Counted from the stretch's first letter, positions 9,936 to 41,200 are shown. The stretch: 41,756 nt of DNA from Candidatus Altarchaeales archaeon WOR_SM1_SCG (GCA_001723845.1 MCBE01000245.1:1-41756), one strand, 5' to 3'. Numbers and translations: made by a program. The notes: generated by a model not told the origin, from the sequence alone.

Positions 9936-10145
9936 GGTATATAATTTTAAATGTGCATAAATCTAAAAATTTAAAATTAATTACATTCAGATGATTTTCA
10001 TATCCGAAAAAATTTTACATAATTATATTTCATTTCTCTTATGTGGGGATTGATTACTCATTCTGTGATTTTTATTATACTTTTTTAACTTTAAAATTCA
10101 ATAATTAAATACTTATTAAAATATCAAAAAATTTCATCCAAAAGC

Positions 10146-10285
10146 GATATATCCGCAATAACTTCGGGTATCACGCCAAATTCCGTTTGAGACTTTTGTC
10201 TCAAAGGATTGCCTCGTATAACTCTGCAATGAAGTTATATCCGCAATAACTTTGGATATAACCTCGTTATATGAAATTCCAAACC
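10146..10285. repeat. Intergenic multi-hairpin element with GCAATAACT loops
   Basis: Hairpins at 10146-10172, 10186-10205 (TTTGAGAC/GTCTCAAA), 10217-10239 (TATAACT/AGTTATA), 10234-10262 (GTTATATCC/GGATATAAC). Confidence 0.7.
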
Positions 10286-10322
10286 CCATCTTTAAGGGAG
10301 TCATTAAATAAAGGAAGAAAAA

Positions 10323-11984: not shown

Positions 11985-14241
11985 TGAAGAATTAAAAAGA
12001 ATAAAAGCGGCATTAAATACTTTAACGATAAGATACGCTAAAGGTGAAATCGGTAGAGAGGAGTACGAAAAATTAAAAAAAGAACTTGAACGAATGATAG
12101 AGGAAGAAAGAAGTAAATTAACTCTATCAAAGGATGAATCCTTAAGTAAAGAAGAAATAATAAAACCAAAAGTAAGTGGTTTAGAAAAAGAAAAACATGA
12201 AGGTGGGTGGTTAAAAAAATTTTTAGTGGTATCAATAATATTTTTTGTGTTAGCACTAATTGTAATAATAGCCACTGCATACTGGATTGGTAAAGAACCT
12301 GAAAGAATGTATCATGAAGGGGAAAACCTCCAGTACAATGCCCAATATAAAGACGCCATAGCAAAATATCAGACGATCGCAGTTAAATATCCAAAAAGCG
12401 ATTATTCAAGTAAAGCAAAGGAAGCAACTGCGGAGACTTATTATGAGTGGGGCCATGAACTTCAAAAGAATAAACAATATAAATACGCTATAGAGAAATA
12501 CAACATAATTGTAGATGAATATTATGATAGTGCTATTAAACCTAATGCTGAAGAATCTATTCCGCAATGTTATTATGAGTGGGGGCAGAAACTACAGGAT
12601 ACTCCTGTAAAGATATTTGTTCCTAGAACAGAAAAACAAATAACAATGAGTAGTGCAAATCAAATTAGCCCTGCAATCTATGACGATAAGATTGTATGGC
12701 AAGATTATAGAAATGGTAACTGGGATATATACATGTATGATCTATCTACTAAAAAAGAAAAACAAATAACAATGAGTAGTGCAAATCAAATTAGCCCTGC
12801 AATCTATGACGATAAGATTGTATGGCAAGATTGTAGAAATGGTGAATACCATTACATGTACTCCATATGGAAATATGACTGTGATAACTGGGATATATAC
12901 CTGTATGATTTGTCTACTAAAAAGGAAAAACAAATAACAACAAATAAAATGAGCCAGAGTTATCCTACAATCTATGACGATAAGATTGTATGGCAAGATT
13001 ATAGAAATGGTAACTGGGATATATACCTGTATGATTTGTCTACTAAAAAGGAAAAACAAATAACAACACACACTACAGATCAAGTAATTCCTTTAATCTA
13101 TGAAAACAGAATTATTTGGGGAGATTATAGAAATTTGAATTGGGATATTTATCTCTATAATTTATCGAGTAATATTCAAAGATCTACAACAAGAGATAGT
13201 TTGCATCAATATGATCATGCAATATATGAAAATATTGTTATTTGGGTAGAAAATATAACGGGAAATTATGGTGTGTATATGTATAATCTTTCAAATAATA
13301 TGAAAACTAAGATAACGGAAAATATCGCAAATCAACAGTTTCCTGCGATGTATGGCAATAAAATTGTATGGCAAGATTATAGGAACGGGAATTATGATAT
13401 TTATATGTATGATCTTTCAACTGAAAATGAAATACAAATAACAGTAGGTAGTTCTCATCAACAGTATCCTGCGATGTATGGTAATAAAATTGTATGGCAA
13501 GACTACAGAAATCTAAACTGGGATATTTACATCGTAGATTTAGAACCTAAAACAACTATACAATATAATGATGCTATAGAAAAATTCATGATAATCACTG
13601 ATAAATATTCTGATAGTCCGTACTCTTCTAAAGGTGAAGAAGCCATTGCACAGTGTTATTATGAATGGGGGCAGGAACTACAAGATGATAAAAAATACGA
13701 TGATGCTGTAAAAAAATATAGAAAAATTTTAGAGGAGTATCCTCTTTCAGCATATAATAGCAGAGCAGATGCTGCTATAGATGAAATTGCAGAATCTTAT
13801 ATTAATATTCTACTTACTGGAGACGAAACATCTCGTGAAAATGCTGCTGAAACTTTAGGAAGAATATACGAGTCGGATGTTGATAAGCTTTTACCTCTAT
13901 TAGATAATAATGAAACTGTTTATGTTATATATCCCATTGTGATAAAAATAGGAAAAGAAAGCACAGAAGATGAATTAATAGACGCAATTAATAAACATAT
14001 AGAGGTTGGATTTTGGGGACGGCTCCGCGAATTAGATGAAAAAATGCTTGAGGATTACCTGAATTGTGGGAATAAAAAATTGAGGGAATCTGTAGAAGAA
14101 TGGGCAGAAAGACACAATTTTATAATCACAAATGCTACATCTTATGAGTATCATCCTACATGGGGTGGTAGAATTGATTATAGATATTATTATGTAGGGA
14201 GTAAAGATAGAGACGAACCTGGAGTTATAAGTGTGTATTGA
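11974..14241 (+). CDS. SHOCT-like/TM protein with TPR units interrupted by a TolB-like 7-blade propeller
   Basis: N-term 'YAKGEIGREEYEKLKKELE', TM 'FLVVSIIFFVLALIVIIATAYW', TPR-like 'YYEWGQELQDDKKYDDAVKKYRKILEEYP', seven 'QITMSSANQISPAIYDDKIVWQDYRNGNWDIYMYDLSTKKEK' units. Confidence 0.85.
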   Translation: MKNNEELKRIKAALNTLTIRYAKGEIGREEYEKLKKELERMIEEERSKLTLSKDESLSKEEIIKPKVSGLEKEKHEGGWLKKFLVVSIIFFVLALIVIIATAYWIGKEPERMYHEGENLQYNAQYKDAIAKYQTIAVKYPKSDYSSKAKEATAETYYEWGHELQKNKQYKYAIEKYNIIVDEYYDSAIKPNAEESIPQCYYEWGQKLQDTPVKIFVPRTEKQITMSSANQISPAIYDDKIVWQDYRNGNWDIYMYDLSTKKEKQITMSSANQISPAIYDDKIVWQDCRNGEYHYMYSIWKYDCDNWDIYLYDLSTKKEKQITTNKMSQSYPTIYDDKIVWQDYRNGNWDIYLYDLSTKKEKQITTHTTDQVIPLIYENRIIWGDYRNLNWDIYLYNLSSNIQRSTTRDSLHQYDHAIYENIVIWVENITGNYGVYMYNLSNNMKTKITENIANQQFPAMYGNKIVWQDYRNGNYDIYMYDLSTENEIQITVGSSHQQYPAMYGNKIVWQDYRNLNWDIYIVDLEPKTTIQYNDAIEKFMIITDKYSDSPYSSKGEEAIAQCYYEWGQELQDDKKYDDAVKKYRKILEEYPLSAYNSRADAAIDEIAESYINILLTGDETSRENAAETLGRIYESDVDKLLPLLDNNETVYVIYPIVIKIGKESTEDELIDAINKHIEVGFWGRLRELDEKMLEDYLNCGNKKLRESVEEWAERHNFIITNATSYEYHPTWGGRIDYRYYYVGSKDRDEPGVISVY

Positions 14242-14331
14242 AAAAGCACCATGAGGAAGGAATCATGGAAAGAAAATTTAGAGAAAAAAGGTCGGAACTC
14301 TGCGATTGCTCCTATCGTCGCTCTCTTGCCC

Positions 14332-14425
14332 TAACGGGTCATACAACAAGTAGGTATCTGGCTACATCTTACGCCTTCGCCCAAATCCTCGCTTCGCTCG
14401 GACTTCAGATACCTGCCCTCCGTTA
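14332..14425. repeat. attC-like nested palindrome
   Basis: TAACGG (14332-14337)/CCGTTA (14420-14425) outer stem; AGGTATCTG (14352-14360)/CAGATACCT (14406-14414) inner perfect 9-bp stem. Confidence 0.55.
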
Positions 14426-14540
14426 TATAACATATTCGGGGGCAGTATCATTAAAAATTAATGGCAATCTATTATTCGTTTGTTTGAAGAATCATTTAAA
14501 TAAATAAAATTTAAAGTATAATCTAAAATTAAAAAAGGAA

Positions 14541-16232
14541 ATGAAAACTAAAATTAAATTAAATGTGGAAAAGATTTTAATTACCGTTATGATATGCTTT
14601 ATTTTTATTGGGTTTGCTGGGGCAGAGGATTGGCCAATGTTCATGCATGACTTAGAGCGTACTGGCGAAACATCAGATGTGATTGAAAATCCAGAAGATT
14701 TAAAATTGAAGTGGAAATCTGGAACTGGTGTTGTGTGGTCATCACCCGCAGTTTCTGGGGATTATGTTTATGTTAGCTCAAAGGGTAATGTCCTTTATTG
14801 TTTTGATAGATATACTGGGGAATTAAAGTGGAAATTTAGGACTGGGGGTTCTCTGTGGTCGCCGCCAATAGTTTCTGAAGAGTATGTTTATATTGGGTCT
14901 TTGGATGGCTACATTTACTGTATTGACAAACACGCAGGAGAATTGAAGTGGAAGACCAGAGAATGGAAAATAGGGGCTGGTGCCACGGTATCTTCAACAT
15001 CCCTCACAGTTTCTGAAGATTACATTTATATAGGTGTTAACATAAAGGCGTATGCAATTCCAGATCTTCACGGTTACTACCTTTGCTGTCTTAATAAAAC
15101 TAGTCCTCACCGAGAAATTATATGGAAGACCAAAATCGGGAACGGTGTGACGTCCGCTGCAATCTCTGGAGATTATATTTATGTGGGTTCTGGAAATAAC
15201 TCCCGCAATGCTGTAAATGATACTTTTTACTGCATTGATAAAAATACAGGGGAAGTGAAATGGAAAACCGTAACTGGTCCCTTGGTAACTGGTCCCTGGT
15301 CTGCGTTTTCAACACCGGTGGTCTCTGGAGACTATGTATATATTGGTTCCTATGATAATCATCTTTATTGTTATGACAAAAACACAGGGGAATTGGCATG
15401 GAAATTTAAAACCGGGGACTACATTGAATCATCGCCCGCGGTCTCTGGAAATTATATTTATGTTCCCTCTACAGACGAACACCTTTACTGCCTTGATAAA
15501 ACTACCGGAAAAGAAATATGGAAAGTTGATACTAGATACCCGGTACTTATATCACCAGCAATATCCGGGGATTATATTTATATAGGGGCATGGAAATGGG
15601 GCAATTACATTTATGCCCTTGATAAATCTACAGGAGAAGTAAAGTGGAAATTTAAAACAGATGCTCCTGTTGACTCAGCAGCGGTCTCTGAAAATTATGT
15701 TTATGTGGGTGATTGGAATGGAAGTGTTTATGCATTTGCTATTCCATTAAAACTAAATGATGAGTCCTGTTCTTATAATTCAGATTGTCAGAGCAAGCAT
15801 TGTGTTCACGAAGTGTGCAGATCAAATGTCTCATATTGTGGTGATAATTACTGTGACTCTGGAGAAAATTATTCATCATGTTCTTCAGATTGTGAAAAAC
15901 CAAAGAAAACAAATGATGAATCATGTTCTTATGATGCGGACTGCCAGAGCAACCACTGTGTTCACGGCGTGTGCAGACCCACTGATCATTATTGTGGTGA
16001 TAATTACTGTGACTCTGGAGAAACTTATTCGTCATGTCCTTCAGATTGTAAAATTGAAAAAGCAGAGAAGGAAGAGCAACCAGATGAAACACCAAAAACT
16101 ATAGAAAAAACAGAAACTGAAAAGAGCGAATCACAATACATTCCATTCCAGATTATTGGAATTTTAATCGGAACTGGAATTTTAATTGCATTAATCGTAC
16201 TAATATTCATACTTTTGAAACAGAGAAAATAG
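14541..16232 (+). CDS. Secreted PQQ-like beta-propeller protein with Cys-rich repeats and C-terminal TM, paralogue of 10323-11984
   Basis: Same leader 'MKTKIKLNVEKILITVMICFIFIGFAGAEDWPMFMHDLERTGETSDVIENPEDLKLKWK' and blade pattern; Cys-rich 'DESCSYDADCQSNHCVHGVCRPTDHYCGDNYCDSGE'. Confidence 0.9.
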   Translation: MKTKIKLNVEKILITVMICFIFIGFAGAEDWPMFMHDLERTGETSDVIENPEDLKLKWKSGTGVVWSSPAVSGDYVYVSSKGNVLYCFDRYTGELKWKFRTGGSLWSPPIVSEEYVYIGSLDGYIYCIDKHAGELKWKTREWKIGAGATVSSTSLTVSEDYIYIGVNIKAYAIPDLHGYYLCCLNKTSPHREIIWKTKIGNGVTSAAISGDYIYVGSGNNSRNAVNDTFYCIDKNTGEVKWKTVTGPLVTGPWSAFSTPVVSGDYVYIGSYDNHLYCYDKNTGELAWKFKTGDYIESSPAVSGNYIYVPSTDEHLYCLDKTTGKEIWKVDTRYPVLISPAISGDYIYIGAWKWGNYIYALDKSTGEVKWKFKTDAPVDSAAVSENYVYVGDWNGSVYAFAIPLKLNDESCSYNSDCQSKHCVHEVCRSNVSYCGDNYCDSGENYSSCSSDCEKPKKTNDESCSYDADCQSNHCVHGVCRPTDHYCGDNYCDSGETYSSCPSDCKIEKAEKEEQPDETPKTIEKTETEKSESQYIPFQIIGILIGTGILIALIVLIFILLKQRK

Positions 16233-17418: not shown

Positions 17419-17524
17419 TTGACTGAAAAATCTGTTTTAGAAAAGCAAGGTGCTACAGGTAAAGGTACTATGTACAACCTTAATTGGGTGCATAAAGGGG
17501 TCAAAGGGGCATTAAAGGGGCATT
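17419..17524 (+). pseudogene. C-terminal fragment of an AlbA_2/RecG-like helicase-related regulator (winged-helix tail)
   Basis: Open frame 'KLTEKSVLEKQGATGKGTMYNLNWVHKGVKGALKGH*' resembles the C-terminal wHTH of AlbA_2-type proteins. Confidence 0.5.
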
Positions 17525-17650
17525 AAAGGGGTCAAATATGTCGGATAAATGTCCGATAAATGTCCGTAATGTCCGATAAATGTTGAATGAAAATAAAATG
17601 AGTCATAAAGGGGTCAATGGGTTCATAAAGGGGTCATAAAGGGGTCAAAA
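17488..17650 (+). repeat. Low-complexity tandem region (ATAAAGGGGTCA and ATAAATGTCCG units)
   Basis: Repeated 'ataaaggggtca', 'aaaggggcatt' and 'ggataaatgtccgataaatgtccg'. Confidence 0.85.
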
Positions 17651-17922
17651 ACCTACGGATTGTACTGGATTATATTTTATGAAAATGGAAATAAAAATAA
17701 AATTCAATGCCGGAGATTACCAGTGGAAATAGAAAATCATTTATCTTTATGGAGCTGTTCAATAAGTTTTTTTAAATTTGTTTTATATTTAATACTAATT
17801 ATTGAAAAAAACTTAATAGAAAAGAAAAAAAATTAGTTTCAAGAATATTTTCAGTTTGAATTGATGTTATCAATTCCAGATTCAGCAGATAACCTTAAAC
17901 AAAAAATTAAAGAGGAATTAAA

Positions 17923-19584
17923 ATGAAATTTTCAAAATTTGATATAGGAGGCGAAATAATCTCAATATTAACCCGAGGGATGTATCCTGACCCAAGGGAC
18001 GCAATAAGAGAATACATACAAAACTGTATTGATGCGGATTCAAAGGAAATTCTTGTTAAAGTAGGACAGGACACTGTAGTAATACAGGACGACGGTTCAG
18101 GTATGGATCAAAAAACAATGAGAAAGGCAGTACGGATAGGTGTTTCTGATAAAATTCCTTCTAAAGATGTGGGGTTTATGGGTATTGGTATTTACAGTTC
18201 ATTTCATTTATGCGATAAACTTACTATTTATAGTAATCAAGATGATTCTCCAAATAAACTGGAAATTGACTTCAATGGTATGCGAGAATTATTAGATGCT
18301 GAAAAATCATTACGATTAGATTCAAAAATAAGCAGTGAAGAACTCACTGACCTACAAACTTTGCTTGAAACACATCTTTTTGTTTCTGAGGATGGAGATG
18401 TTAAACCTGAAGAGTTTCCGCATAAAGGAACAAGAGTTGAACTGACTGGACTTAAACCTGCGTTCTATACTGAAATATCTGATTTTAATAAATTATCGGA
18501 GTATATACAAGAAGTTGTTCCTTTGCGTTTTGATAAAGAAAATTTTAGATGGGGGGAGTTAATTGAAAATAAAATTACTGAAATTTGTGAAAGAGAAGGG
18601 GCAAAATTTGAACGGGTTGATGTTAATCTACAGGTGCATAATAAATCAAAATACCTTTATAAACCATACAAAAATAGTGATTTTAAAAATGATTCGCCTC
18701 AAGAGCCAAGATTTCATGAAATAAAATATCAAAATAAGTTCTTTGGTGTTGCATGGGGCTGCTTAAATTCTATTAGGCGAAAAATAAACAATAAAGATTT
18801 AAGAGGTTTTTTATTAAAGAAACAAGGATTTGGAATAGGTAAAAGACAAAATCTAATGAAATATTTTCCAGAGGGTCATCAATATTTTGACAGATACATT
18901 GGAGAAGTTATTATTGTGAACAAAGAATTACTTCCAAACGCATCAAGAAGTGACTTAGAACACTCTGCTTTACGTGCATTGTTTTATGATGCTTTTAGAA
19001 AAGTAGCGGCAGAATATGATGGCCATGGGTTTAAATTCCAAAAACAAGATCTAGCAGAAGAAAAATTAAGTGAAATAAAAGGAGAATTACAACAAGAAAA
19101 TCTTCGTTTTAACGAATCAGAGGAAAATGCGGAAAAATTAATTGACCAGGTAGTTAAGGTAAAAAAAATCAGTGATAATATTGATATACGTTTAAAAGAT
19201 AGCAAGTACATAAAACCTGAAGATAAAAAATTAGCCGATGAATTAAAAAAGCAAGCCAAGTCATTAGAATATTCTATACAAAACAAAATACATGATATTT
19301 CAAGAAAAACAATATCACAAAGAAAAAAAACAAAAGCGAAAAAAAGAAAAGGTGAAACTCCTATTGAAAGAGCAAAGAAATTATCGGGAATAGATTTACC
19401 TAAAATTGAAACAAAAAAATATGAAACTCTCGTTGAAGTATTTGAGGATTTAGATATAGAACTAAGTGAGGAAATAAGAAAGGCATTATATATAATTGAT
19501 GAAAAGTTTATTCAATCACAAGCTGAAAATAAAGAACACTATTTCCAATTATTAAATGAATTAAAAGACCAAATAACAGATTAG
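17923..19584 (+). CDS. GHKL/HSP90-like ATPase (HATPase_c_3-type) with coiled-coil C-terminus
   Basis: N-box 'RDAIREYIQNCIDAD', 'VVIQDDGSGMDQKTM', 'DVGFMGIGIYSSFHLCDKLTIYS'. Confidence 0.9.
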   Translation: MKFSKFDIGGEIISILTRGMYPDPRDAIREYIQNCIDADSKEILVKVGQDTVVIQDDGSGMDQKTMRKAVRIGVSDKIPSKDVGFMGIGIYSSFHLCDKLTIYSNQDDSPNKLEIDFNGMRELLDAEKSLRLDSKISSEELTDLQTLLETHLFVSEDGDVKPEEFPHKGTRVELTGLKPAFYTEISDFNKLSEYIQEVVPLRFDKENFRWGELIENKITEICEREGAKFERVDVNLQVHNKSKYLYKPYKNSDFKNDSPQEPRFHEIKYQNKFFGVAWGCLNSIRRKINNKDLRGFLLKKQGFGIGKRQNLMKYFPEGHQYFDRYIGEVIIVNKELLPNASRSDLEHSALRALFYDAFRKVAAEYDGHGFKFQKQDLAEEKLSEIKGELQQENLRFNESEENAEKLIDQVVKVKKISDNIDIRLKDSKYIKPEDKKLADELKKQAKSLEYSIQNKIHDISRKTISQRKKTKAKKRKGETPIERAKKLSGIDLPKIETKKYETLVEVFEDLDIELSEEIRKALYIIDEKFIQSQAENKEHYFQLLNELKDQITD

Positions 19585-19590
19585 ATAGAT

Positions 19591-20589
19591 ATGAGTAATT
19601 TTAAAAGTAGTAAAAATAAGGATTTTATAAGAAGTAATTGGGGTAAACCGTTATTAGATTTCATTTATACAAACATTAACTGTAAGTTAGTATATATGGG
19701 TCTTCCATCCCCCAATGCTGAGGATATAAAAGAGTGGATAGATTATTTGAGTAAAGTAATTGCATTTCAATGTAGAGATTATCCAAAACCATCTGATCCT
19801 GCTACACAGAGTAAAGAGGCCGTTCACAAACTTGAAAAAATGCTATTGGATTTTCAAAGGATGAAAAAAATTGAATCTTTTGCAGTTTATGACGGTTATA
19901 TTGAAGAAGTAATACTAAACAGAAGAGATCTGTCACTTATTGAATTTAATCAAGATGAGACTGTGATGGTATATAATCTTGACTTTTGTAATGAGATTGA
20001 TTCACCATTAGACTATATGGATAAAAACGGTGAACCTAAAAAGGCATATAAATTTCAAGTAATTAAAGAGATTTTACAATTACAGAAAAGTATTGAGGAT
20101 TCAAGTCAAAAATTCATAATGTTTTTAACGATTCGTGCAAAATTTGAGGACGAAGATATATCAGAATTTATTAAAAATACAAACAACGAAACAATCAAAC
20201 AACTCATCAAGAATTATTCAAATATTTCTGGTATTGACAAAAAAGCAAGAATTCTGCGTATTTACATAATAGAAACATTAAGAAATTTTTTTCAGCACTA
20301 TGAATATATCCCAAGATTTCTTCCAACGATACAATATAAAGGAACGGGGAATGCAAATATCTTGCATTTTACAGTTATTGGGACAAGAACAGAACCAACA
20401 GCCGGTGGCACCGTCTATTGGCATCAAGATTTAAAAACTTTATGCGGGCAAAAATTTATCACAGTAAAAAATGAAGCGTTTATTAGGATTACAAAGAATG
20501 AGTTAGACGAAACAGAATGTACTTTAAATCCAATTAGATCATTTCGTGATAAAAAAGAGTTTAAAGATTATTGGCAAAAAGCAGAATGA
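19591..20589 (+). CDS. Unknown protein (332 aa), second gene of putative module 1
   Basis: Long ORF 6 bp after the ATPase and overlapping the next gene; no family recognised. Confidence 0.85.
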   Translation: MSNFKSSKNKDFIRSNWGKPLLDFIYTNINCKLVYMGLPSPNAEDIKEWIDYLSKVIAFQCRDYPKPSDPATQSKEAVHKLEKMLLDFQRMKKIESFAVYDGYIEEVILNRRDLSLIEFNQDETVMVYNLDFCNEIDSPLDYMDKNGEPKKAYKFQVIKEILQLQKSIEDSSQKFIMFLTIRAKFEDEDISEFIKNTNNETIKQLIKNYSNISGIDKKARILRIYIIETLRNFFQHYEYIPRFLPTIQYKGTGNANILHFTVIGTRTEPTAGGTVYWHQDLKTLCGQKFITVKNEAFIRITKNELDETECTLNPIRSFRDKKEFKDYWQKAE

Positions 20590-22505
20590 ATAAGAAAAGA
20601 AATATCTTACTTGTAGAACCCAGATATAAAAATAAATACCCTCCAATAGGATTGATGAAACTTGCCACATATCACCGTAATTTAGGTGATAATGTTGTTT
20701 TCTTTAAAGGTGACTTAAAAGATTTTGTTATTGAAAATATTTATAATGAGGTTTTAGAAAAACTCAAACAGATTGAAAATGATATGGATTGGGAAAAACA
20801 AAGAACAAACATTATCAGATATATAAAAACAAAAAACAGATACATTCTTGAGGATATATTAAATGGTTTAACAAAAAATAAACCACTATTAACAGAATGT
20901 CTTAACAGTTATAGTGATTTTTATAAAAAGAGAGAATATCTAAAAAATCCGCGTTGGGACAGAATTTATATTTCAACATTATTTACTTTTTATTGGAAAA
21001 TTACAATTGAAACAATAAACTTTGCAAAAAATCTTGTAAAAGATATAGAAGAATTAAAGGTTGGAGGTGTGATGGCTACTGTACTGTCTGATGAAATTAA
21101 AAGAGAAACGGGGATTAAACCATGGTGTGGCTTACTTGATAAACCAAGTATTTTAGACGATAATGATATTATTGTTGATGAGTTGCCTTTAGATTACTCA
21201 ATTTTAGATGAAATAGATTATAAATATCCTGAAAACAACGCTTATTATTCATATATGACTAGGGGTTGTCCAAATGATTGTGAATTTTGCGCAGTCTCAA
21301 AGATAGAACCAAAATATAAAGAATATATTTCAATTAAAAAGAATTTTGAACACGTAAGAAAAAAGTTCGGGGAAAAACAAAATCTGCTATTATTAGATAA
21401 TAATGTTTTGGCTTCTCCTCGTTTTCCCGAAATAATAGAGGAAATAAAAAATCTTGGTTTTGTAAAAGGTGCCACTTATGTTGAACCCAATCAATTTGAA
21501 ATCGCAATCTCAAATTTAAAAAAAGGTAAAAATGATGATGCATATGTTAAAAAAACATTTTATCTAATTCATGATTTATTGAACAAACTTGAAAGATATA
21601 AAAATGTTAGGCAGGAAGTTGTTCGAGAGGTTTATAATATTTTAGGGAAATATGATTTATTAAAAATTGAAACTGCAACCAAATCAAATTTACTCAAAGT
21701 TTATCCTATTCTATCAGATATTTATGAAAAGTACAGGTACAAAGGAAAAAAATCAAGGCACGTTGATTTTAATCAGGGAGTAGACGCTCGTTATATCACA
21801 GAGAAAAAAATGAAGTTATTGAGTGAAATTCCTATTAAACCACTAAGGATAGCATTTGATAACATTAAACTTAAAGATAAGTATGTAAAATCTGTTAAAT
21901 GGGCTGCAAAATATGCTATTCGAGACATTTCAAATTATCTGTTATATAATTACAAAGATAAACCAGATGATTTATACCAGAGATTAAGGATTAGTGTTGA
22001 TTTATGCGAAGAGTTGGATGTGAATATTTATTCTTTCCCTATGAAATATATACCCATACATGGTGATGATTCAAAAGACAGAAGTTTTCTTGAGAAACGC
22101 TGGAACAAGAAATTTATTGGGGCGATCCAAGCAATTCTGAACGCAACAAAAGGTAAGGTTGGTAGAGGTAAAAGTTTTTTTGAAAGAGCGTTTGGAAAAA
22201 ATTTAGATGAATTTCACGAGTTACTTTATATGCCTGAGACATATATCATTTATAGAAAAATATTTGAGGAATTGGGTTATACTCAAGAATGGAGGAAGGC
22301 ATACAAACAACTTACTGAAAAGGAAAGAAAGAAAGCCAATAAAATAATTGAAACAAACGATTTCAGTAATTACTATTTAAAAACAAAAAATAAAAAAATT
22401 ATGGAAGTGCTAAAACATTACACTATAAAACGGGATGATGTGAAAAAAGAGGACGAAGGATTTAAAGATTTAAAAAACAAATTTGATGGTTTGATAAAAA
22501 CTTGA
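20586..22505 (+). CDS. Radical SAM protein with N-terminal B12-binding-like region, long form
   Basis: 'ILLVEPRYKNKYPPIGLMKLATYHRNLGDNV', 'KVGGVMATVLSD', 'YMTRGCPNDCEFCAVSKIEP' (Cx3Cx2C); ATG at 20586 overlaps the upstream stop (ATGA). Confidence 0.9.
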   Translation: MNKKRNILLVEPRYKNKYPPIGLMKLATYHRNLGDNVVFFKGDLKDFVIENIYNEVLEKLKQIENDMDWEKQRTNIIRYIKTKNRYILEDILNGLTKNKPLLTECLNSYSDFYKKREYLKNPRWDRIYISTLFTFYWKITIETINFAKNLVKDIEELKVGGVMATVLSDEIKRETGIKPWCGLLDKPSILDDNDIIVDELPLDYSILDEIDYKYPENNAYYSYMTRGCPNDCEFCAVSKIEPKYKEYISIKKNFEHVRKKFGEKQNLLLLDNNVLASPRFPEIIEEIKNLGFVKGATYVEPNQFEIAISNLKKGKNDDAYVKKTFYLIHDLLNKLERYKNVRQEVVREVYNILGKYDLLKIETATKSNLLKVYPILSDIYEKYRYKGKKSRHVDFNQGVDARYITEKKMKLLSEIPIKPLRIAFDNIKLKDKYVKSVKWAAKYAIRDISNYLLYNYKDKPDDLYQRLRISVDLCEELDVNIYSFPMKYIPIHGDDSKDRSFLEKRWNKKFIGAIQAILNATKGKVGRGKSFFERAFGKNLDEFHELLYMPETYIIYRKIFEELGYTQEWRKAYKQLTEKERKKANKIIETNDFSNYYLKTKNKKIMEVLKHYTIKRDDVKKEDEGFKDLKNKFDGLIKT

Positions 22506-24010: not shown

Positions 24011-24016
24011 TCAAAC

Positions 24017-24236
24017 ATGAAAAAGGTCTCTGACATAAACCTTAAAAAAGGAATGACTGCAAATGAACTGGTAGAACAGATGTACAAAAGCGGCGGCTTC
24101 ACTGCAAAAAAATTAGCGGCAGGCGTAAACATTCTTGAAACAATGGTAAAAGACCCAGACTGTAAAATTTTTCTTTCATTTCCCGCCTGCATCATTTCAA
24201 CGGGAACAAGAGGCATAATAAGGGATTTAATTAAAA
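24017..24236 (+). pseudogene. 5' fragment of deoxyhypusine synthase (duplicate of 27726-27945)
   Basis: 220 bp aligned without gaps to the intact gene with 6 substitutions by eye, then abrupt divergence after TTAATTAAAA. Confidence 0.95.
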
Positions 24237-24360: not shown

Positions 24361-24410
24361 TTCAAAAATTTAAATCTCTTGAATTTTAATTAATAACAAC
24401 AAGCAACAAC
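24361..24410 (+). repeat. Direct repeat DR1 on the left of module 2
   Basis: TTCAAAAATTT...CTCTTGAATTTTAATTAATAACAACAAGCAACAAC; compare 27666-27722. Confidence 0.65.
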
Positions 24411-24413
24411 AAA

Positions 24414-25553
24414 GTGAAAAAGGATATATTATTAGTTGAGCCTGCATATAAGAATCCATACCCTCCATTGGGTTTAATGAAAATTTCAACATGGCACAAG
24501 AGGAAGGGAGATAATGTGGATTTTATTAAAGATACCCCACATGATCCTAAACTCGATCTTTTTGAAAAAAATAATGTGTGTTATAAAAAACTCAGAGATC
24601 ACTATGACATTGTATATGTAACAAGTTTGTTCACATATCAAGCTCATTATGTTGCTACTTCAGTAAATTACTACAAAAATAGATTCCCTGATTCTCAAAT
24701 AAGAGTGGGTGGAATTATGGCAACGCTCATGCCGGAATATATCGAGAAAAAGACAGGTATAAACCCACATATTGGTCTACTCCAAGGAGTTGAAGACTGT
24801 CCACCAGATTATTCATTGTTCCCTAACTTAGAATATTCAGTCACTTTTGCAACAAGAGGATGCCGTAGAGATTGTCCTTTCTGTGCCGTGAAGAAACATG
24901 AGCCAGAGTTTTTTGTAAAAGAAAATTGGCCTGGAGACATAGACATCACAAAAAAAGGAATTATTTTTTGGGATAATAATTGGCTTATGTCACCTAACTT
25001 TGAAAAAGATGTTGAAAGATTACTAGAATTTAAAAAGATAGGGATAAAAAACATTGACTTCAATCAGGGGTTAGATTGTAGAGTATTTGACGAATATAAG
25101 GCAAAGTTGTTGAGAAAAGTAAATCCCAAACCATTAAGATTTGCATTTGATAATTGCTCAGAGGACGGGCATATACAAAAAGCTATCAAATTAGCGCAAA
25201 AAAAAGGTTTTAATGATATAAGAGTTTATGTCTTATATAATTTTGAAGACCCTAGTGACACACCAGAATATTTTTACTATAGAATCAACGAGATAAATAA
25301 ATTAGAGGCGTTATCATATCCAATGCGTTATCGCCCTCTAAATGATCTCACTGGACAATACATTTCGGATAACTGGGATAAAGAATTGTTACGGGCTTTG
25401 AAATTGTCACTTATGTTTTATTATCAAAAGGGCATGGTTACAAAAAATCGTGAATCTTTTAAGAAAATTTATGGAAATAACCCCGATGAATTTAAAGAAA
25501 AGTTATACCTAATATATAAACATGATAAACAACTTAAGAAAAAAAAGACATAA
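24414..25553 (+). CDS. Radical SAM protein with B12-binding-like N-terminus, short form, GTG start
   Basis: 'DILLVEPAYKNPYPPLGLMKISTWHKRKGDNVDFIK', 'VGGIMATLMPE', 'FATRGCRRDCPFCAVKKHEP', 'IDFNQGLDCRVFDEYKAKLL'. Confidence 0.9.
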   Translation: MKKDILLVEPAYKNPYPPLGLMKISTWHKRKGDNVDFIKDTPHDPKLDLFEKNNVCYKKLRDHYDIVYVTSLFTYQAHYVATSVNYYKNRFPDSQIRVGGIMATLMPEYIEKKTGINPHIGLLQGVEDCPPDYSLFPNLEYSVTFATRGCRRDCPFCAVKKHEPEFFVKENWPGDIDITKKGIIFWDNNWLMSPNFEKDVERLLEFKKIGIKNIDFNQGLDCRVFDEYKAKLLRKVNPKPLRFAFDNCSEDGHIQKAIKLAQKKGFNDIRVYVLYNFEDPSDTPEYFYYRINEINKLEALSYPMRYRPLNDLTGQYISDNWDKELLRALKLSLMFYYQKGMVTKNRESFKKIYGNNPDEFKEKLYLIYKHDKQLKKKKT

Positions 25554-25597
25554 GATCAAGTATAATAAAAAATTTAAAAATTTAAGAGAGGTACAAA

Positions 25598-26752
25598 ATG
25601 AAAAAACAGAAGAAATCTGAAATTTGGGATGAATTGTCAAATATGGTTTCCAAAAAAGTGAAACTTGAAGATATCTATCTTGACCCTAATAATCCAAGAT
25701 TTGAAATACCGTTGAAGGAGAAAGTTCCTGATGAGCGAATAATGGAGGAAGAAATTGGGCAGATGTGCATGGAAAAAATGCGTGCAATAGGTATAACTGA
25801 TTTAACTGAAAGCATAAGAACCTCTGGTTTTTGGATTGTTGATAGAGTAGTTTTAAGACCAATATTAGATTCGGATAAGTATGTCGTTGTTGAAGGAAAT
25901 AGAAGAATTACGGCGCTTAAAACTCTTCTGAGGGCTCATAAGAGAGGAAGAATCACCTTACCTGACTATATAAAGGATGTAATTACGGAATTTGAAGCTT
26001 TGATTTATAACGGTACAGATCATGAAATTGCCTGGATTATACAAGGCTTTAGGCATACGCCCGGCATCAAATCCTGGGAACGATACCCAAAAGCTAAGTT
26101 TCTTGCTGAGTTTAAAAAAGAAAAAAAGAAAAGTTTTTCAGGAATTAGTTCAATATTTGGAATGAAAAGGATAGAGGTAACAAATTTGATTCGTTCTTTT
26201 CATGCTTTTGAACAAGCAAAAGAAGATGAGGAGTATGGAGATATTCTAGACTCTGATAAATTTGGTCATTTTTATGATATAATCCTAAAAAAACCTGAAC
26301 TTAAGAATTGGATGGGGTGGGATGATAAAAGGATGGTATTCACGGAAATAAGTAACCTAAAAAAATATCTTTCTTGGATAAGTCCAGAAGAAGGAGAAGA
26401 GAAGCCTAAGATTGATATTTCCCCTACTACGAGAGATGTTTTACCCAAACTTATTCAACAGGAGAATAAAAAACTCTTTGAAAAATTTGAAAGTGGAGAA
26501 CTTACTATTAGGCAATGCGAAGAAAATTTACTTAAGGAAGAAATTAAGGAAGAAAGCAAAAGAGAAGCATTAGACATTTCAGACGTCATAAAAAATATTG
26601 AAGGAATGAAAATGGTAATAAATACATTACCTATTGCTCAATTGCAACTAGCGGAGTCAACAAGTGAAAAAGAGCAGAAGAAAAAACTTTGTACTGCTTT
26701 GGAAGAATTGCTTAAATTTATACAAATTCAGATAGATAATCTCAAGAAATGA
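25598..26752 (+). CDS. ParB-like nuclease-domain protein
   Basis: 'VKLEDIYLDPNNPRFEIP...GITDLTESIRTSGFWIVDRVVLRPILDSDKYVVVEGNRRITALKTLLR' matches a ParB N-terminal fold with ExNRR. Confidence 0.88.
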   Translation: MKKQKKSEIWDELSNMVSKKVKLEDIYLDPNNPRFEIPLKEKVPDERIMEEEIGQMCMEKMRAIGITDLTESIRTSGFWIVDRVVLRPILDSDKYVVVEGNRRITALKTLLRAHKRGRITLPDYIKDVITEFEALIYNGTDHEIAWIIQGFRHTPGIKSWERYPKAKFLAEFKKEKKKSFSGISSIFGMKRIEVTNLIRSFHAFEQAKEDEEYGDILDSDKFGHFYDIILKKPELKNWMGWDDKRMVFTEISNLKKYLSWISPEEGEEKPKIDISPTTRDVLPKLIQQENKKLFEKFESGELTIRQCEENLLKEEIKEESKREALDISDVIKNIEGMKMVINTLPIAQLQLAESTSEKEQKKKLCTALEELLKFIQIQIDNLKK

Positions 26753-27642
26753 TAAACTCTTCATGTTCTACTACTTTAGCAAAAAAAATTTATGAAGAAA
26801 TATTTTATTTAGAACCTCTCCAAGATAAAATAGACCTTGATGGATATTGTGAAAAAAAATTGAAAATCGAATTTCCTAATCTAAGTGATCCAGAAATCGC
26901 GGATGAGTTAGAGAACATATTAGAAAAAGTTAAATTCCGTATAAACAAAAGGAAAGAATATTGTGAAAAACAATGTATTGCTCCCGAATACGAACTTGCT
27001 GAATACCCCCCTAATCTTCTTCTGCATTACAGTTTTAAATATAATGAGCCACCATTACTTTCATTTTTGAGAAAACAAAATAGGCAAGTATTAAAAGGAA
27101 TAAATGAAATGTCTTGGGATTCTTTTGAATATCTGTGTAAGCATTTGTTAGAAATCAATGGAGTCAAACCATTAACACTTACTAAAAGAAATCAGGAGGG
27201 CATAGATTTTTGCGGATTATATGACATAGGCAGTTACACTACTTATTCTTCTTCTATGATTATCCCAAAAACTTTTACAATAAAGATTGTTGGTCAAGTA
27301 AAACATTATCCTATTGAGAAGATAAAACCAAGAGAAATAAAATCTTTCAGTACATATTGTGACGATGTCAAAAATGAGAAAGAAAGAGTAATAAAAAAGT
27401 TACCTACATGGTTTAATGAAGCTAAACGACCTGTATTGGGTGTTTTCATTACACTATCGGCCTTTACAAGGGGAACTATTGGCCACTCTGAAAATGAATG
27501 GATAGTTTTGAGAGATGGGGAGCAAGTTGTAGAAGACATCATAAAATCACCCTACAGCGAAAATTGGGTCAAAAGTATAGGTGAAAAATTAACTTTTGAC
27601 AAAGAATCATTTCTGAAATCTTTTGAAAAAAATAATACTTAA
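26749..27642 (+). CDS. Mrr-like restriction endonuclease-fold protein
   Basis: 'MSWDSFEYLCKHLLEINGVKPLTLTKRNQEGIDFCGL...TIKIVGQVKHYPIEKIKPREIKSF' consistent with D...QxK nuclease core; ATGA overlap with upstream gene. Confidence 0.75.
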   Translation: MINSSCSTTLAKKIYEEIFYLEPLQDKIDLDGYCEKKLKIEFPNLSDPEIADELENILEKVKFRINKRKEYCEKQCIAPEYELAEYPPNLLLHYSFKYNEPPLLSFLRKQNRQVLKGINEMSWDSFEYLCKHLLEINGVKPLTLTKRNQEGIDFCGLYDIGSYTTYSSSMIIPKTFTIKIVGQVKHYPIEKIKPREIKSFSTYCDDVKNEKERVIKKLPTWFNEAKRPVLGVFITLSAFTRGTIGHSENEWIVLRDGEQVVEDIIKSPYSENWVKSIGEKLTFDKESFLKSFEKNNT

Positions 27643-27665
27643 GATTATAGATTTGATGTTCCCTA

Positions 27666-27722
27666 TTCAAAAATTTTGATAATATCTCTCTTGAATTTTA
27701 ATTTTAATTAATAACAGCAACA
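27666..27722 (+). repeat. Direct repeat DR2 on the right of module 2, upstream of intact deoxyhypusine synthase
   Basis: TTCAAAAATTTTG...CTCTTGAATTTTAATTTTAATTAATAACAGCAACAA; compare 24361-24410. Confidence 0.65.
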
Positions 27723-28655
27723 ATGATGAAAAAGGTCTCTGACATAAACCTTAAAAAAGGAATGACTGCAAATGAACTGGTAGAGCAGATGTATAAAAGC
27801 GGCGGCTTCACTGCAAAAAAATTAGCGGCAGGCGTAAACATTCTTGAAAAAATGGTAAAAGACCCGGACTGTAAAATTTTTCTTTCATTTCCCGCCTGCA
27901 TCATTTCAACGGGAACAAGAGGCATAATCAGGGACTTAATTAAAAATAAATTAGTTGATGCAGTAATCACGACCTGCGGGACACTTGACCATGACCTTGC
28001 CCGCGTGTGGAAGGACTACTATCACGGGGATTTTTTGATGGATGACAAAAAACTTCATAAAAAAGGTATCAACCGTCTCGGTAATGTATTAATTCCCAAT
28101 GAATGCTACGGCATAATTCTTGAGCAGAAGATGCAGCCGATTCTCTCTGAAATATACAATGAAGGAAAAAAAGAATTTTCAACAAGGGAAATTGTATGGG
28201 AATTCGGGAAAAAAATTAATAATGAAAATTCAATTCTTTACTGGGCGCATAAAAATAAAATCCCGATTTATGTCCCGGGAATCACGGACGGCGCCTTCGG
28301 GAGCCAACTATGGATGTTCTGGCAGGAGCATAAAGATTTCAAAATAAACCTGTTTGAGGACGAACAGGAACTCATGAATATGGTTTTTGATGCAAAAAAA
28401 ACAGGTGCCTTGATGATCGGCGGAGGGATAAGCAAGCATCATGTAATCTGGTGGAATCAATTCAGAGACGGGCTGGATTATGCTGTTTATATTACAACCG
28501 CTCCCGAGTACGACGGCTCGCTATCCGGTGCAAGAATAAGAGAAGCGGTCTCATGGGGCAAGGTAAAAGAAGATGCTAAATTTGTCACAATTGAAGGCGA
28601 TGCGACAGTAATTTTGCCGTTAATGATTGCATCTTTAATTGACAGATTGAAGTGA
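27723..28655 (+). CDS. dys: Deoxyhypusine synthase
   Basis: 'ISTGTRGIIRDLIKNKLVDAVITTCGTLDHDLAR', 'IPIYVPGITDGAFGSQLWMFWQEH', 'MIGGGISKHHVIWWNQFRDGLDYAVYITTAPEYDGSLSGARIREAVSWGKV'. Confidence 0.97.
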   Translation: MMKKVSDINLKKGMTANELVEQMYKSGGFTAKKLAAGVNILEKMVKDPDCKIFLSFPACIISTGTRGIIRDLIKNKLVDAVITTCGTLDHDLARVWKDYYHGDFLMDDKKLHKKGINRLGNVLIPNECYGIILEQKMQPILSEIYNEGKKEFSTREIVWEFGKKINNENSILYWAHKNKIPIYVPGITDGAFGSQLWMFWQEHKDFKINLFEDEQELMNMVFDAKKTGALMIGGGISKHHVIWWNQFRDGLDYAVYITTAPEYDGSLSGARIREAVSWGKVKEDAKFVTIEGDATVILPLMIASLIDRLK

Positions 28656-29502: not shown

Positions 29503-30069
29503 ATGGCAAGAAGAAGAGGAAAAGCGATTGATAAATGGAAGCAAAAGACCAGGTATAAAATTTTAGCACCGCAGGACTATGATTACAAGGTGCTGGGAAC
29601 TACAATGTCTTCCGATGCGAAAAAGCTGGCTGGAAGAACAATTAAGGTTTCAATGAGAGATGTTACGGGAGATAAGGCAAAACAGCACCAGAACCTGATT
29701 TTTGAACTCATCACAGCGGAAGGTACGGGAGTTCATACAAAATTTAAAAAATATATTGTTGCAAGAAATTATTTAAATTCAATGGTCAGGGAAGGTTCAA
29801 GCAAGATTCAATTTGTAGAAGACATAGAATTTCCCGATGCGAAAATGAGAATAAAAATTATGGTGACAACAAGAGGGCATAAGCAATCGGCACAGAAAAA
29901 AGAGATAATAAAAAAGATGTCAAGAATGTTAAACGCCCATAAAGGAGATTCGCTCCAGAATTTTACGCATCTTTTAACTACTGAAAAATTAGGTATGGAG
30001 ATGTATCACAACATTAAAAATATCTGTCCCATCGGGCGGCTTGAAATCGCCGAGGTTTCTGTTGTTTGA
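29503..30069 (+). CDS. rps3ae: 30S ribosomal protein S3Ae (eS1)
   Basis: 'KWKQKTRYKILAPQDYDYKVLGTTMSSDAKKLAGRTIKVSMRDVTGDKAKQHQNLIFEL'. Confidence 0.95.
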   Translation: MARRRGKAIDKWKQKTRYKILAPQDYDYKVLGTTMSSDAKKLAGRTIKVSMRDVTGDKAKQHQNLIFELITAEGTGVHTKFKKYIVARNYLNSMVREGSSKIQFVEDIEFPDAKMRIKIMVTTRGHKQSAQKKEIIKKMSRMLNAHKGDSLQNFTHLLTTEKLGMEMYHNIKNICPIGRLEIAEVSVV

Positions 30070-32932: not shown

Positions 32933-34228
32933 CTATGGTTTCATAATCTTAAAATGTTCAAATATTGAGGATAATGCTATGTTTGAAGGTGTTCCTAAAG
33001 CCATAGAAACTATGGAAAAAACGGTTAAAGGACTCATAAAAGGTTTTGTTTTCAAATCTTCATTTTTTATCTCAATTGGAACTTCAGGGAAATATTGTTC
33101 CTCCTTCATGCAAACTGGCAAACCGCATTTTTCTATGTGTTCAATGAATCTTTTACTATAGAAATATAATGTTGATCCATAACAATTAATCAGACGAACT
33201 TTAATCTCAATACTATCTTCATATCCATATGAGAGTAGAAAATTTGAATATCTGTTTAGTATGCCCATAATGCCACCAAAAATATTAATTGGATCTAAGA
33301 AGGTCAATGAATAAAAAGAATCAGGATGATATTTTTTGGTTACATTCATGTAGTTTTCATCAAATTTATTATAATCATCTAATTTTGCATTAATAAGGGG
33401 TATTAAAATTTTAGTGTTTCCATATATATCAAGTTCAACAGTCAGACCATTATAAGTAATATCATTTCCTATCCTTTGCCTTATAGCAATACTATTGGGG
33501 TAAGTATTTAAAGTATCAAAAGGTATGTTTCCACCGATGCTAACTTCTGAATCTCCGATTTTCTCTTTAATAGTATATTTTTCACTAAACTTGCTCAATA
33601 TCTCTGAGAATTTCGCATTATTAAATAAATCAGGAACCGTAAAGTGATTAAAAGGTTTAGTATTGATAAAAATTTCTAAGTGTGGATTTGATTCTCCCAT
33701 ACAAAAATTATAATCAATTTTTCTGAACTCTTCTAACTTTTTCATGTATTTTTCCGCTTTAGTATAAAGCATATCTACCGTATGTCTATTAGATTCATGT
33801 ATAGGTTCTGATGCAGCTTCTTGTCGCCTATATATTCTTCCATCAGAGTGAATGTAGGGGGGATTTCCACCTTCAGAAATCACGACCATAATCACTTTTT
33901 TCCCAATAGCAAGAGGAATTGAAAATGTTTCAAAATAGGGAAATGGTTGAAGATTGCCACTTACAGAATCTCTAATTATATCGGGGGAATCATCAACTCC
34001 CAATATATTCTTAGCACAATTAGTTTTATCATCATGTTCAATGCCTACAAAATAAATGCCCCCATATGAATTTGCAAATGAAGAAATTGATTTTGCAATC
34101 TTCTTTCCTTTTTGTTTTTCTCTTTTGTATTCAACATACCAACCTTCAGCAACTGTGTTTAGAGTATTTAAATCGATCTCCTCTACATCTTTGAATGGTT
34201 TTCCAAATGGGTTAAATATCGATGTCAT
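32933..34228 (-). CDS. AlbA_2/Schlafen-type putative DNA-binding (ATP-binding) domain protein
   Basis: 'EGWYVEYKREKQKGKKIAKSISSFANSYGGIYFVGIEHD...DGRIYRRQEAASEPI'. Confidence 0.85.
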   Translation of the reverse strand: MTSIFNPFGKPFKDVEEIDLNTLNTVAEGWYVEYKREKQKGKKIAKSISSFANSYGGIYFVGIEHDDKTNCAKNILGVDDSPDIIRDSVSGNLQPFPYFETFSIPLAIGKKVIMVVISEGGNPPYIHSDGRIYRRQEAASEPIHESNRHTVDMLYTKAEKYMKKLEEFRKIDYNFCMGESNPHLEIFINTKPFNHFTVPDLFNNAKFSEILSKFSEKYTIKEKIGDSEVSIGGNIPFDTLNTYPNSIAIRQRIGNDITYNGLTVELDIYGNTKILIPLINAKLDDYNKFDENYMNVTKKYHPDSFYSLTFLDPINIFGGIMGILNRYSNFLLSYGYEDSIEIKVRLINCYGSTLYFYSKRFIEHIEKCGLPVCMKEEQYFPEVPIEIKNEDLKTKPFMSPLTVFSIVSMALGTPSNIALSSIFEHFKIMKP

Positions 34229-38220: not shown

Positions 38221-41200
38221 TTAAATTTTACTTAACTTTTTCAACCTCTTTTCATATTCCACGATTCCGATTTTGCCGTCAAACCACTTTTTCCTGAGTT
38301 CTTCTTCAGGTGTGAGTTCTTTTCCATGAACATAATCTCCCTGTTGAGTTGCCGTCTCTTCGGCTCCCCCCGGCTTTTGTACATCACCTCCCGCTTTAAT
38401 GGTTTTAGTATCAATGTCAAGAACTTTCAATTCGGATGTGTATTTTTTCTTCCAGAACTCGTAGCTGTGCCTGCCTATGCCGCCTGACACCCTATCAGAT
38501 TCAAGTTTTTCAAGATTATGGAGAATTTTTTGTTTTTCGGAGTCAAATTCTGATCCCCCCTGCCCGGGAATCCTTGAATCTTCTACTTGCTGCCGGATTG
38601 CTGTGAGTTCGTCGGTTTTCGCTTTAATCTTTTGCTCATATTTTTTTATTTCATCTTCGTATTTAGATACAAACCCGGATAATGCCTTCTGTTTCTGCTT
38701 CAGTTCCTCGTCAAGTTCCACCTTCTTTTCAGCAAGCAGTTTTGAGGACTCTATCCTCTCCTGCAATTTTCTTAACTCTTCTTCCTGTCTTTGCTTTTCC
38801 TCTTCTCTTGCTTTAAGTTCATGCTGCATGGTTCTTACCTTTTCCTCAAAGCCGGATACAAGGTCGTGTTTCCTCTTCAATTCATCGTCAAGTTCCGCCT
38901 TTTGTTCCGCAAGCAGTTTTGAGGAATCTATCCTCTCCTGCAATTTCCTTAACTCTTCTTCCTGTCTTTGCTTTTCCTCTTCTCTTGCTTTAAGTTCATG
39001 CTGCATGGTTCTTACCTTTTCCTCAAAGCCGGATACAAGATCGTGTTTCCTCTTCAATTCATCGTCAAGTTCCGCTTTTTGTTCAGCAAGCGTTTTTGAT
39101 GCCTCTATCCTCTCCTGTAATTTTCTTAACTCTTCTTCCTGTCTTTGTTTTTCCTCTTCTCTTGCTTTAAGTTCATACTGCATGATTTTTACCTTTTCCT
39201 CAAAACCGGATACGAGGTCGTGCTTTTGTTTCAGTTCCTCGTCAAGTTCCGCCTTCTTTTCAGCAAGCATTTTTGATGACTCTATCCTCTCCTGTAATTT
39301 TCTTAACTCTTCTTCCTGTCCTTGCTTTTCCTCTTCTCTTGATTTAAGTTCAAACTGCATGGTTTTTACCTTCTCCTCAAACCCGGATACGAGGTCGTGT
39401 TTCTGCTTCAGTTCCTCGTCAAGTTCCGCCTTCTTTTCCGCAAGCAGTTTTGAGGACTCTATCCTCTCCTGTAATTTTCTTAACTCCTCTTCCTGTCTTT
39501 GCTTTTCCTCTCTTGAATGTTCTATTTTTCTCTGCATCTCCATGAGTTCCTCTTCCTGTCTTTGCTTTTCGTCTTTTTTCGCCTGAATTTTTCCCTTACT
39601 TATCCCCAGGTTTCGCATCTTATCTTCAATCTCTGACATCCTGGTGTTGAGCGCGTTTAAATTATCGGTGTGTGTCTGCTTCCAGAATTTGTATTCCAAT
39701 TCACTTATCTCGCCTGAAACCTTTTCAATTTCAAGGTGGTCAAGTTTAGACAGGATTTTTTGTTTTTCCTTTGACAGGTGAGGATATATTTTTAAAATTT
39801 CAAAATCATGCTCGTCTTTTTTTGCCTTTTTTTCCAGTTCCTCTGCAATAATTTCACTCTCGTATAAAATATTTTTTAAATTTTTTGGCATATCGGGTTT
39901 TGCCTCTGCAAATTTTTCCATTGCCCCGGGTAATGCATCAATTTCTTTATTTTTGAATTCCACATCCAGCAGTGTCATAAAGCCCTCAATGAATTTTTTT
40001 ATTGTATTTTCTTTTGTGCATTCAAGGGCTTCATTTAACGCGAATTTTGCTTTTTTTATATCTCTTAGTTTTTCACGGCATTTTGCTATTTTTATATAAT
40101 AGTGTGCTGCTTTTTCATTTTTTTCTTTACATGCAAAACTTTTAACAATCGCATCATACATCTGTAAAGCATTTTCATATTCTTTATCTTTATATTCTTT
40201 ATCCGCCTGCTCAACAACAGATGTTTCTGCATACTCTCGCACATGCCCGTCAATATCGTTCAAGGCATTTATCAGCGGTTCAACCGCTCTTCTGTCTTTG
40301 ATTTCCCCAAGTAGTTTCGCTGCATTTTTACGCACCCATGCATCGCCATCCTTCAATGCGCTTATCAGCGCCTCAATTTCTCCCGGGTCTTTAAATTCTT
40401 TTAATAATTTTTCAGCAATTTTTTGCACCCCGGAATCATCATCCTTCAATGCGTTTATCAACGAAACAACCGCTTTTTGGTCTTTAATTTGTTCTAATGC
40501 AAGTGCGGCACTTTTCCTGACCCTTGAATCATCATCCTTTAACGCGCCTATCAAAGGTTCTATCGTGCGGGGGTCTCTAATTTTTATCAGGCAATCGGCA
40601 GCTTTCCTGCGCACTTCTAAATCCTCATCCTTTAATGCTTCTGCAAGGGGAATAACCACTCTTTTGTCCTTGATTTCCCCTAATAATTTCACTGCGTTTT
40701 TTCTTACCCATGAATCGCTGTCTTTCAATGCGCTTATCAGGGCGTCAACAGATTCGGGTTTAAGATTTTCCAATAATTTCGCAGCGTTTTTTCTTACCCA
40801 GTCATCCCTATCCTTCAATGCTTTTATCAGGGGAATAATTGCTATCGGGTCTTTAATTTGTTCTAATGCCAATGCTGCACTGCTGCGAACCCACACATCT
40901 CTATCCTTCAATGCCTTTATCAGGTGTTCTATCGCACGCGGGTCTTTAATTTTTATCAGCCCGTCAACCGCTGTTCTTCTCACTTCAACATCGCTGTCCT
41001 TTAATGCCGCTATCAGTGAATCGGCTGCTCCCCGATCTTTGATTTCTCCCAATGCCTTTGCAGCACTGCTCCGCACCCCTGCATCATTATCACTCAATGC
41101 GTTTATCAATGGCTCAACCGCTCCCGGGTCTTTGATTTCTCCCAACGCTCTTGCCGCACTTCCCCGCACCTTTGCATCGCCGTCCTTTAATGCGTTTATC

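Follow-up and report, generated by a model that had tools for sequence, protein, structure and literature searches.

The window, a stretch of 41,756 nucleotides from Candidatus Altarchaeales archaeon WOR_SM1_SCG, carries three adjacent genes encoding a radical SAM protein (rSAM2), a ParB-like protein and a putative Mrr-type nuclease (Table 1). All three were observed to be intact open reading frames arranged co-directionally on the + strand, and their identities, which a sequence-only reading of this DNA had proposed, were borne out by Pfam and PHROG matches and by structural models. The gap between rSAM2 and the ParB-like gene is 44 nt and the ParB-like and Mrr genes share the ATGA overlap (26749-26752) that had been read there. 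That reading also recognised no DNA methyltransferase and, in agreement with this, none was recognisable between 24000 and 27723 from open reading frames and Pfam. The end which it gave for the module, 27666, is located 24 nt beyond the Mrr stop and is the start of a flanking repeat.

Table 1. Features of the trio, its boundaries and the second module (module 1) in the window.
Feature	Coordinates	Strand	Description
Module 1, GHKL ATPase	17923-19584	+	outside cassette
Module 1, 332-aa protein	19591-20589	+	between GHKL and second rSAM
Module 1, second rSAM of the rSAM2 family	20571-22505	+	module span 17923..22505
Truncated 5' end copy of deoxyhypusine synthase gene	24012..24236	+	96% identity, 225 nt, to 27721-27945
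Terminator-like inverted repeat TTAGGGGGT-TTTCA-ACCCCCTAA	24269..24291	.	between truncated copy and cassette
Left deoxyhypusine-synthase leader/start-codon repeat	24361..24423	+	3' end within first rSAM2 codons
rSAM2 (radical SAM, phrog_9298 family; putative modifier)	24414..25553	+	379 aa, GTG start
ParB-like protein (putative DNA-loading/licensing partner)	25598..26752	+	384 aa, EGNRR
Putative Mrr-type nuclease	26749..27642	+	297 aa, D153..Q183-x-K185 core
Right copy of leader repeat	27666..27735	+	leader and first codons of intact deoxyhypusine synthase
Intact deoxyhypusine synthase (host gene)	27723..28655	+	cassette at its start

The two leader repeats that enclose the trio align locally with a score of 58, where the best of 2000 shuffles reached 35 and the remaining upstream regions in the window scored 12-28. 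The truncated deoxyhypusine synthase copy is an insertion or recombination scar. The GC content of the trio is 31-33% and that of most flanking core genes is about 40% (37-44%), with a few flanking genes as low as the trio, for example 32933-34228. Because the three genes share direct repeats and low GC and adjoin the truncated copy, they form one inserted unit today, and all three may have arrived in one step. Comparison with an empty site in relatives was uninformative because the genes surrounding deoxyhypusine synthase differ in order there; the host's phylum is represented by 29 genomes in the collection searched. No Rfam match was found within the cassette. Downstream of the intact synthase, the product of 29503-30069 is presumably a ribosomal S3Ae-like protein, which, together with the deoxyhypusine synthase, marks the host as archaeal.

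rSAM2 contains a single CxxxCxxC motif (CRRDCPFC, at residue 150) and matches phrog_9298, a 'radical SAM domain protein' family, at 4e-58, while its Pfam matches to B12-binding (4e-5) and Radical_SAM (3e-4) both fall under the Pfam cut-off. The AlphaFold2 model, made with 40 relatives in the alignment, has a mean pLDDT of 91.4 and consists of two domains, an N-terminal B12-binding-like Rossmann domain and a radical-SAM barrel. The cluster motif and the modelled barrel together indicate that rSAM2 very probably belongs to the radical SAM superfamily. The classical DxHxxG of class B cobalamin-dependent enzymes is absent from its sequence despite the Rossmann-like N-terminal domain. Among the PDB fold matches listed, the best were MgmA, MiaB, AprD4 and TokK, which act on protein, tRNA, an aminoglycoside (sugar) and a carbapenam respectively; since these substrates differ, the fold names none for rSAM2. 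No DNA-acting radical SAM enzyme was found among the listed matches. Viperin, a known antiviral radical SAM enzyme that makes nucleotides, was absent from the 50 PDB fold matches listed. In the defence and family libraries, rSAM2 gave no PADLOC match and no NCBIfam match above cut-off, and a single-protein scan of viral contigs with it retrieved no relatives.

The ParB-like protein contains EGNRR at residues 99-103, in keeping with the ExNRR that had been reported for it. Its model is of moderate confidence (mean pLDDT 79.3), and every one of its 30 PDB matches at E<=0.001 is to a ParB, Spo0J, Noc or KorB protein; these proteins are CTP-dependent DNA clamps. The GxRR-type nucleotide motif and the predicted fold point to a member of the ParB superfamily. 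A match to Pfam GmrSD_N (21.8 bits) was found under the cut-off of 33.2. Sequence searches of the PDB with the ParB-like and Mrr proteins gave nothing meaningful, tblastn of the former against plasmids gave no match, and at E 1e-6 no window-like ParB was found in 394 genomes sampled from the phylum of locus L101.

The nuclease matches Pfam Mrr_cat over almost the full model length (1.1e-7, 32.4 bits; cut-off 21). Its D...QxK core, which had been called plausible, was located at D153, Q183 and K185, and L200, L239 and L240, three independent relatives, have identical residues at these positions; both lines of evidence suggest that the protein is an Mrr-type nuclease. The same three loci carry true ParB-Mrr pairs, one in Bacteroidota (L200) and two in Nitrospirota (L239 and L240). 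No modifier gene was found beside the pair in the flanks fetched of L200 and L239; the upstream flank of L240 lies beyond the contig end. Within L200:3430-9458, genes for a tyrosine integrase, a dCTP deaminase and an AAA_21 ATPase lie close to the pair. In five genomes with a window-like ParB, which are possibly incomplete, radical SAM matches were at background or superfamily level only (best 4.5e-12). Relatives of the nuclease match the PADLOC type IV REase models weakly. No relatives were retrieved when the Mrr protein was compared by tblastn with plasmids and phages, when viral contigs were scanned with the single protein, or when a two-sequence profile was used. In addition, five more Mrr_cat matches above cut-off were observed in the same genome, on contigs C62, C240, C250, C228 and C54.

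A second set of ParB-like proteins was found in clusters similar to the window cassette, with a modifier, a ParB-like protein and a nuclease-like protein (L203-L208, L242 and L244, from Bacteroidota and other genomes, and the P2-like viral contig L012). Their gene order is often the same, being modifier-ParB-nuclease in L203-L206 and L242, so that in these distant pairs of ParB and nuclease a DNA methyltransferase is found at the position occupied by rSAM2 in the window. These systems differ from the cassette in that the modifier is a D12 or C5 methyltransferase and the nuclease-like protein is of another kind. Furthermore, their ParBs form a separate clade of 13 rows (support 100/99). The window protein falls outside this clade and groups instead with the Mrr- and AAA-linked ParBs.

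At least 250 relatives of rSAM2 were confirmed in the genome scan and at least 422 among 600 candidates in the viral-contig scan. Neighbours, called by HMM and Pfam, were counted in the 80 genome loci that are the best by similarity to rSAM2 and hence no random sample. A GHKL ATPase was observed within 5 kb of the rSAM in 34 of these 80 loci and directly adjacent on the same strand in 29, HerA in 19, NurA in 18 and a ParB-superfamily gene in 15. A ParB-type gene also lies near the rSAM in 20 of 80 viral loci. A 281-kb set of loci not selected on rSAM contained one GHKL match, inside a restriction locus, and provides a rough background only since it was selected on ParB or deoxyhypusine synthase. 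A four-gene set of NurA-like protein, HerA, GHKL ATPase and rSAM is kept in L140-L162 (Bacteroidales, Selenomonadales and other bacteria). On alphaproteobacterial plasmids, one cluster comprises a ParB-like protein, a small protein, a helicase, ParB, a DndB-like protein, the rSAM and GHKL. DndB/DGQHR-like genes, known from Dnd/Ssp phosphorothioation systems with DndB, accompany the rSAM relatives of L006-L008, L010, L030, L054, L109, L110 and L113, but none of the window trio matched a Dnd family. HerA, NurA and an rSAM were also seen near one another in Marinitoga camini virus 1 (L009). As for neighbours of other kinds, an rSAM relative adjoins a phosphoribosyltransferase at L096:2767-3591 and a DISARM DrmE_C-like protein at L135:5406-7994.

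In phages, a ParB_N gene is found directly upstream of the rSAM and near the terminase. It overlaps the rSAM start, commonly by 16 nt, in L015, L016, L053, L105, L107 and others. Six N6/N4-methyltransferase and four C5-methyltransferase matches were also observed among the phage rSAM neighbours. We considered the conserved RCGLL C-terminal tail of the phage ParB_N proteins as a possible peptide substrate of the rSAM; the overlapping rSAM start (MRIAL...), which largely encodes this tail, accounts for it better, and the window ParB has no such tail. In a family tree of 111 rows, made by a quick method with SH-aLRT support only, the partner labels need 34 changes and shuffled labels need 68. The partners thus appear to be clustered on the tree, yet to have been swapped many times. 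These recurrent contexts (GHKL, HerA-NurA, ParB-helicase, DndB-like and phage ParB_N) fit a swappable modifier that would serve several nuclease modules.

The nearest relatives of rSAM2 among the matches listed are found in L093 (76%) and L094 (73%), and three different partner sets were noticed in these loci and the window. The window protein is found with ParB-Mrr, that of L093 with GHKL and another gene, and that of L094 with a different GHKL and a 207-aa gene; in both relatives GHKL lies beside the rSAM and ParB-Mrr is absent. Directly after the three genes of L093 lies 9223-11370, which we take to encode two proteins, one a further SAM-type Fe-S protein and the other similar to three-Cys-motif partner (TcmP) proteins. 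The window itself contains another rSAM of this family in module 1, which is 35-55% identical to rSAM2, in pieces, and up to 66% identical to bacterial rSAMs paired with HerA-NurA-GHKL. L133 carries the GHKL and 332-aa genes of module 1 but an rSAM of a different lineage. Directly upstream of module 1 (17480-17651), 11-nt tandem repeats of the AAAGGGGCATT / GTCATAAAGGG type were observed.

The reading of the trio that we tentatively regard as most likely is a mobile restriction-type defence cassette in which a modifier other than a methyltransferase is coupled to the nuclease. In this scheme a probable NTP (CTP)-dependent clamp, the ParB-like protein, would load onto incoming DNA and bring or license Mrr, which would then cut that DNA. 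rSAM2 would form the 'self' side by modifying DNA, on the base or on the sugar, or by a less direct route some other nucleic acid, and the clamp and nuclease would spare a host modified in this way. A modification/restriction logic that needs no methyltransferase was already suggested in the sequence-only reading, and it is partly supported. The general case for the rSAM family as a modifier is good because its neighbours are DNA-handling and restriction genes (GHKL, HerA-NurA, ParB, DndB-like and helicase), because a methyltransferase occupies its position in comparable clusters and because the family is shared with phages. The specific coupling inside the window cassette is the weaker part: the two halves share cassette boundaries here, but each is found apart from the other in its nearest relatives, with GHKL beside the closest listed rSAMs and no visible modifier beside the closest ParB-Mrr pairs, and no second rSAM-ParB-Mrr trio was found among the relatives.

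It is almost as likely that the trio comprises two independent units, namely a ParB-Mrr defence that is self-sufficient without self-modification and an orphan rSAM from a GHKL-rSAM system which landed in the same insertion hotspot. ParB-Mrr would then tell its targets apart by the topology of the DNA, by a foreign modification on it or by its state of replication. Such an arrangement would account for the pairs without a visible modifier in L200 and L239 (and in L240, with one flank missing), for the lack of a strong rSAM-family match in the genomes of window-like ParBs, for the GHKL partners of the nearest listed rSAMs and for the placement of the window ParB with the Mrr/AAA-linked proteins and outside the methyltransferase-linked ones. 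The coupled cassette is nevertheless preferred, as a single set of flanking repeats surrounds all three genes, the genes overlap or are only 44 nt apart, and ParB is again paired with an rSAM in phages and in ParB-helicase-rSAM clusters.

The substrate of rSAM2 and the target of the nuclease were weighed in the same manner. The closest listed folds, being enzymes of protein, tRNA and small molecules with no DNA-acting rSAM among them, argue against DNA as the substrate and would suit a defence unit in which the rSAM acts on a protein or an RNA, or produces a small molecule with antiviral activity, as an enzymatic signal or effector. We consider this unlikely, given that the family's neighbours handle DNA (GHKL, HerA-NurA, ParB, DndB-like, terminase and DNA methyltransferases) and that viperin does not appear among the listed matches. 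Less probable still is a modification-dependent, type IV-like action, where ParB-Mrr would cut phage-modified DNA (for example that made by a phage rSAM), in the way that glucosylated DNA is cut by GmrSD. What speaks against such an action is that the cassette's own rSAM, a member of this family, would make the host's DNA a target. In its favour are the high frequency of the family on viral contigs, the weak resemblance of the Mrr relatives to type IV REases and the GmrSD_N match of the ParB-like protein, below cut-off.

Among known systems, the closest to the ParB part is PDC-M38, an unvalidated PADLOC candidate whose M38A is a ParB-AAA fusion. The window ParB matches PDC-M38A at E 2e-45 over 17-378 of the 715-position profile and the match ends at 362-395, where the profile runs on into AAA_21/AAA_15 as in L201, but the window protein has no AAA ATPase domain and is accompanied by a separate Mrr and rSAM. 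The possibility that PDC-M38A is a ParB-methyltransferase fusion was ruled out by L201, which shows ParB-AAA. A more distant resemblance (E 7e-13) was found to the N-terminal ParB-like part of PD-Lambda-5_A from PD-lambda-5, an E. coli prophage defence with the restriction-type logic 'RM+Abi' (PMC9519451), although the methyltransferase named in that system is absent from the cassette. GmrSD (PMC4619093) is similar in pairing a ParB/Srx-fold protein with a nuclease, but GmrS has a near-invariant DGQQR where the window protein has EGNRR, and GmrD is an HNH (DUF1524) protein where the window has Mrr, with no HNH domain match in the cassette. GHKL ATPases sit beside restriction genes in restriction-modification loci (PMC2292703), a text search of which found no mention of radical SAM; many rSAM2 relatives lie beside GHKL in a similar manner, whereas the cassette has no GHKL and module 1 has one. 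Classical restriction-modification, where a methyltransferase lies beside the nuclease, also differs from the cassette in this respect. No rSAM-ParB-Mrr or rSAM-GHKL-HerA-NurA system was found to be described in the open-access literature searched, a body that leaves most subscription papers and all preprints outside.

More broadly, the phrog_9298 rSAMs might constitute a new class of DNA-modifying enzymes, a proposal that we put forward with slightly less confidence than the coupled cassette. They would write a non-methyl self mark for interchangeable modules (ParB-Mrr, HerA-NurA, ParB-helicase and GHKL), and phages would use them with a ParB_N partner to escape. If the rSAM does mark DNA, restriction would write self by radical chemistry, with a modifier class that lies outside the libraries searched, and this would explain the frequency of these rSAMs on phage contigs near terminase and ParB_N genes. 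Even without coupling, the association of rSAM with GHKL, HerA-NurA and ParB recurs in archaea and many bacterial phyla, and the ParB-Mrr pair occurs in at least three phyla.

Elsewhere in the window, long proteins with internal repeats were observed at 10323-16232 and 38221-41442, among them PQQ/BamB-like beta-propellers and a 1073-aa repeat protein with DNA repeats of 177 nt and 93 nt.
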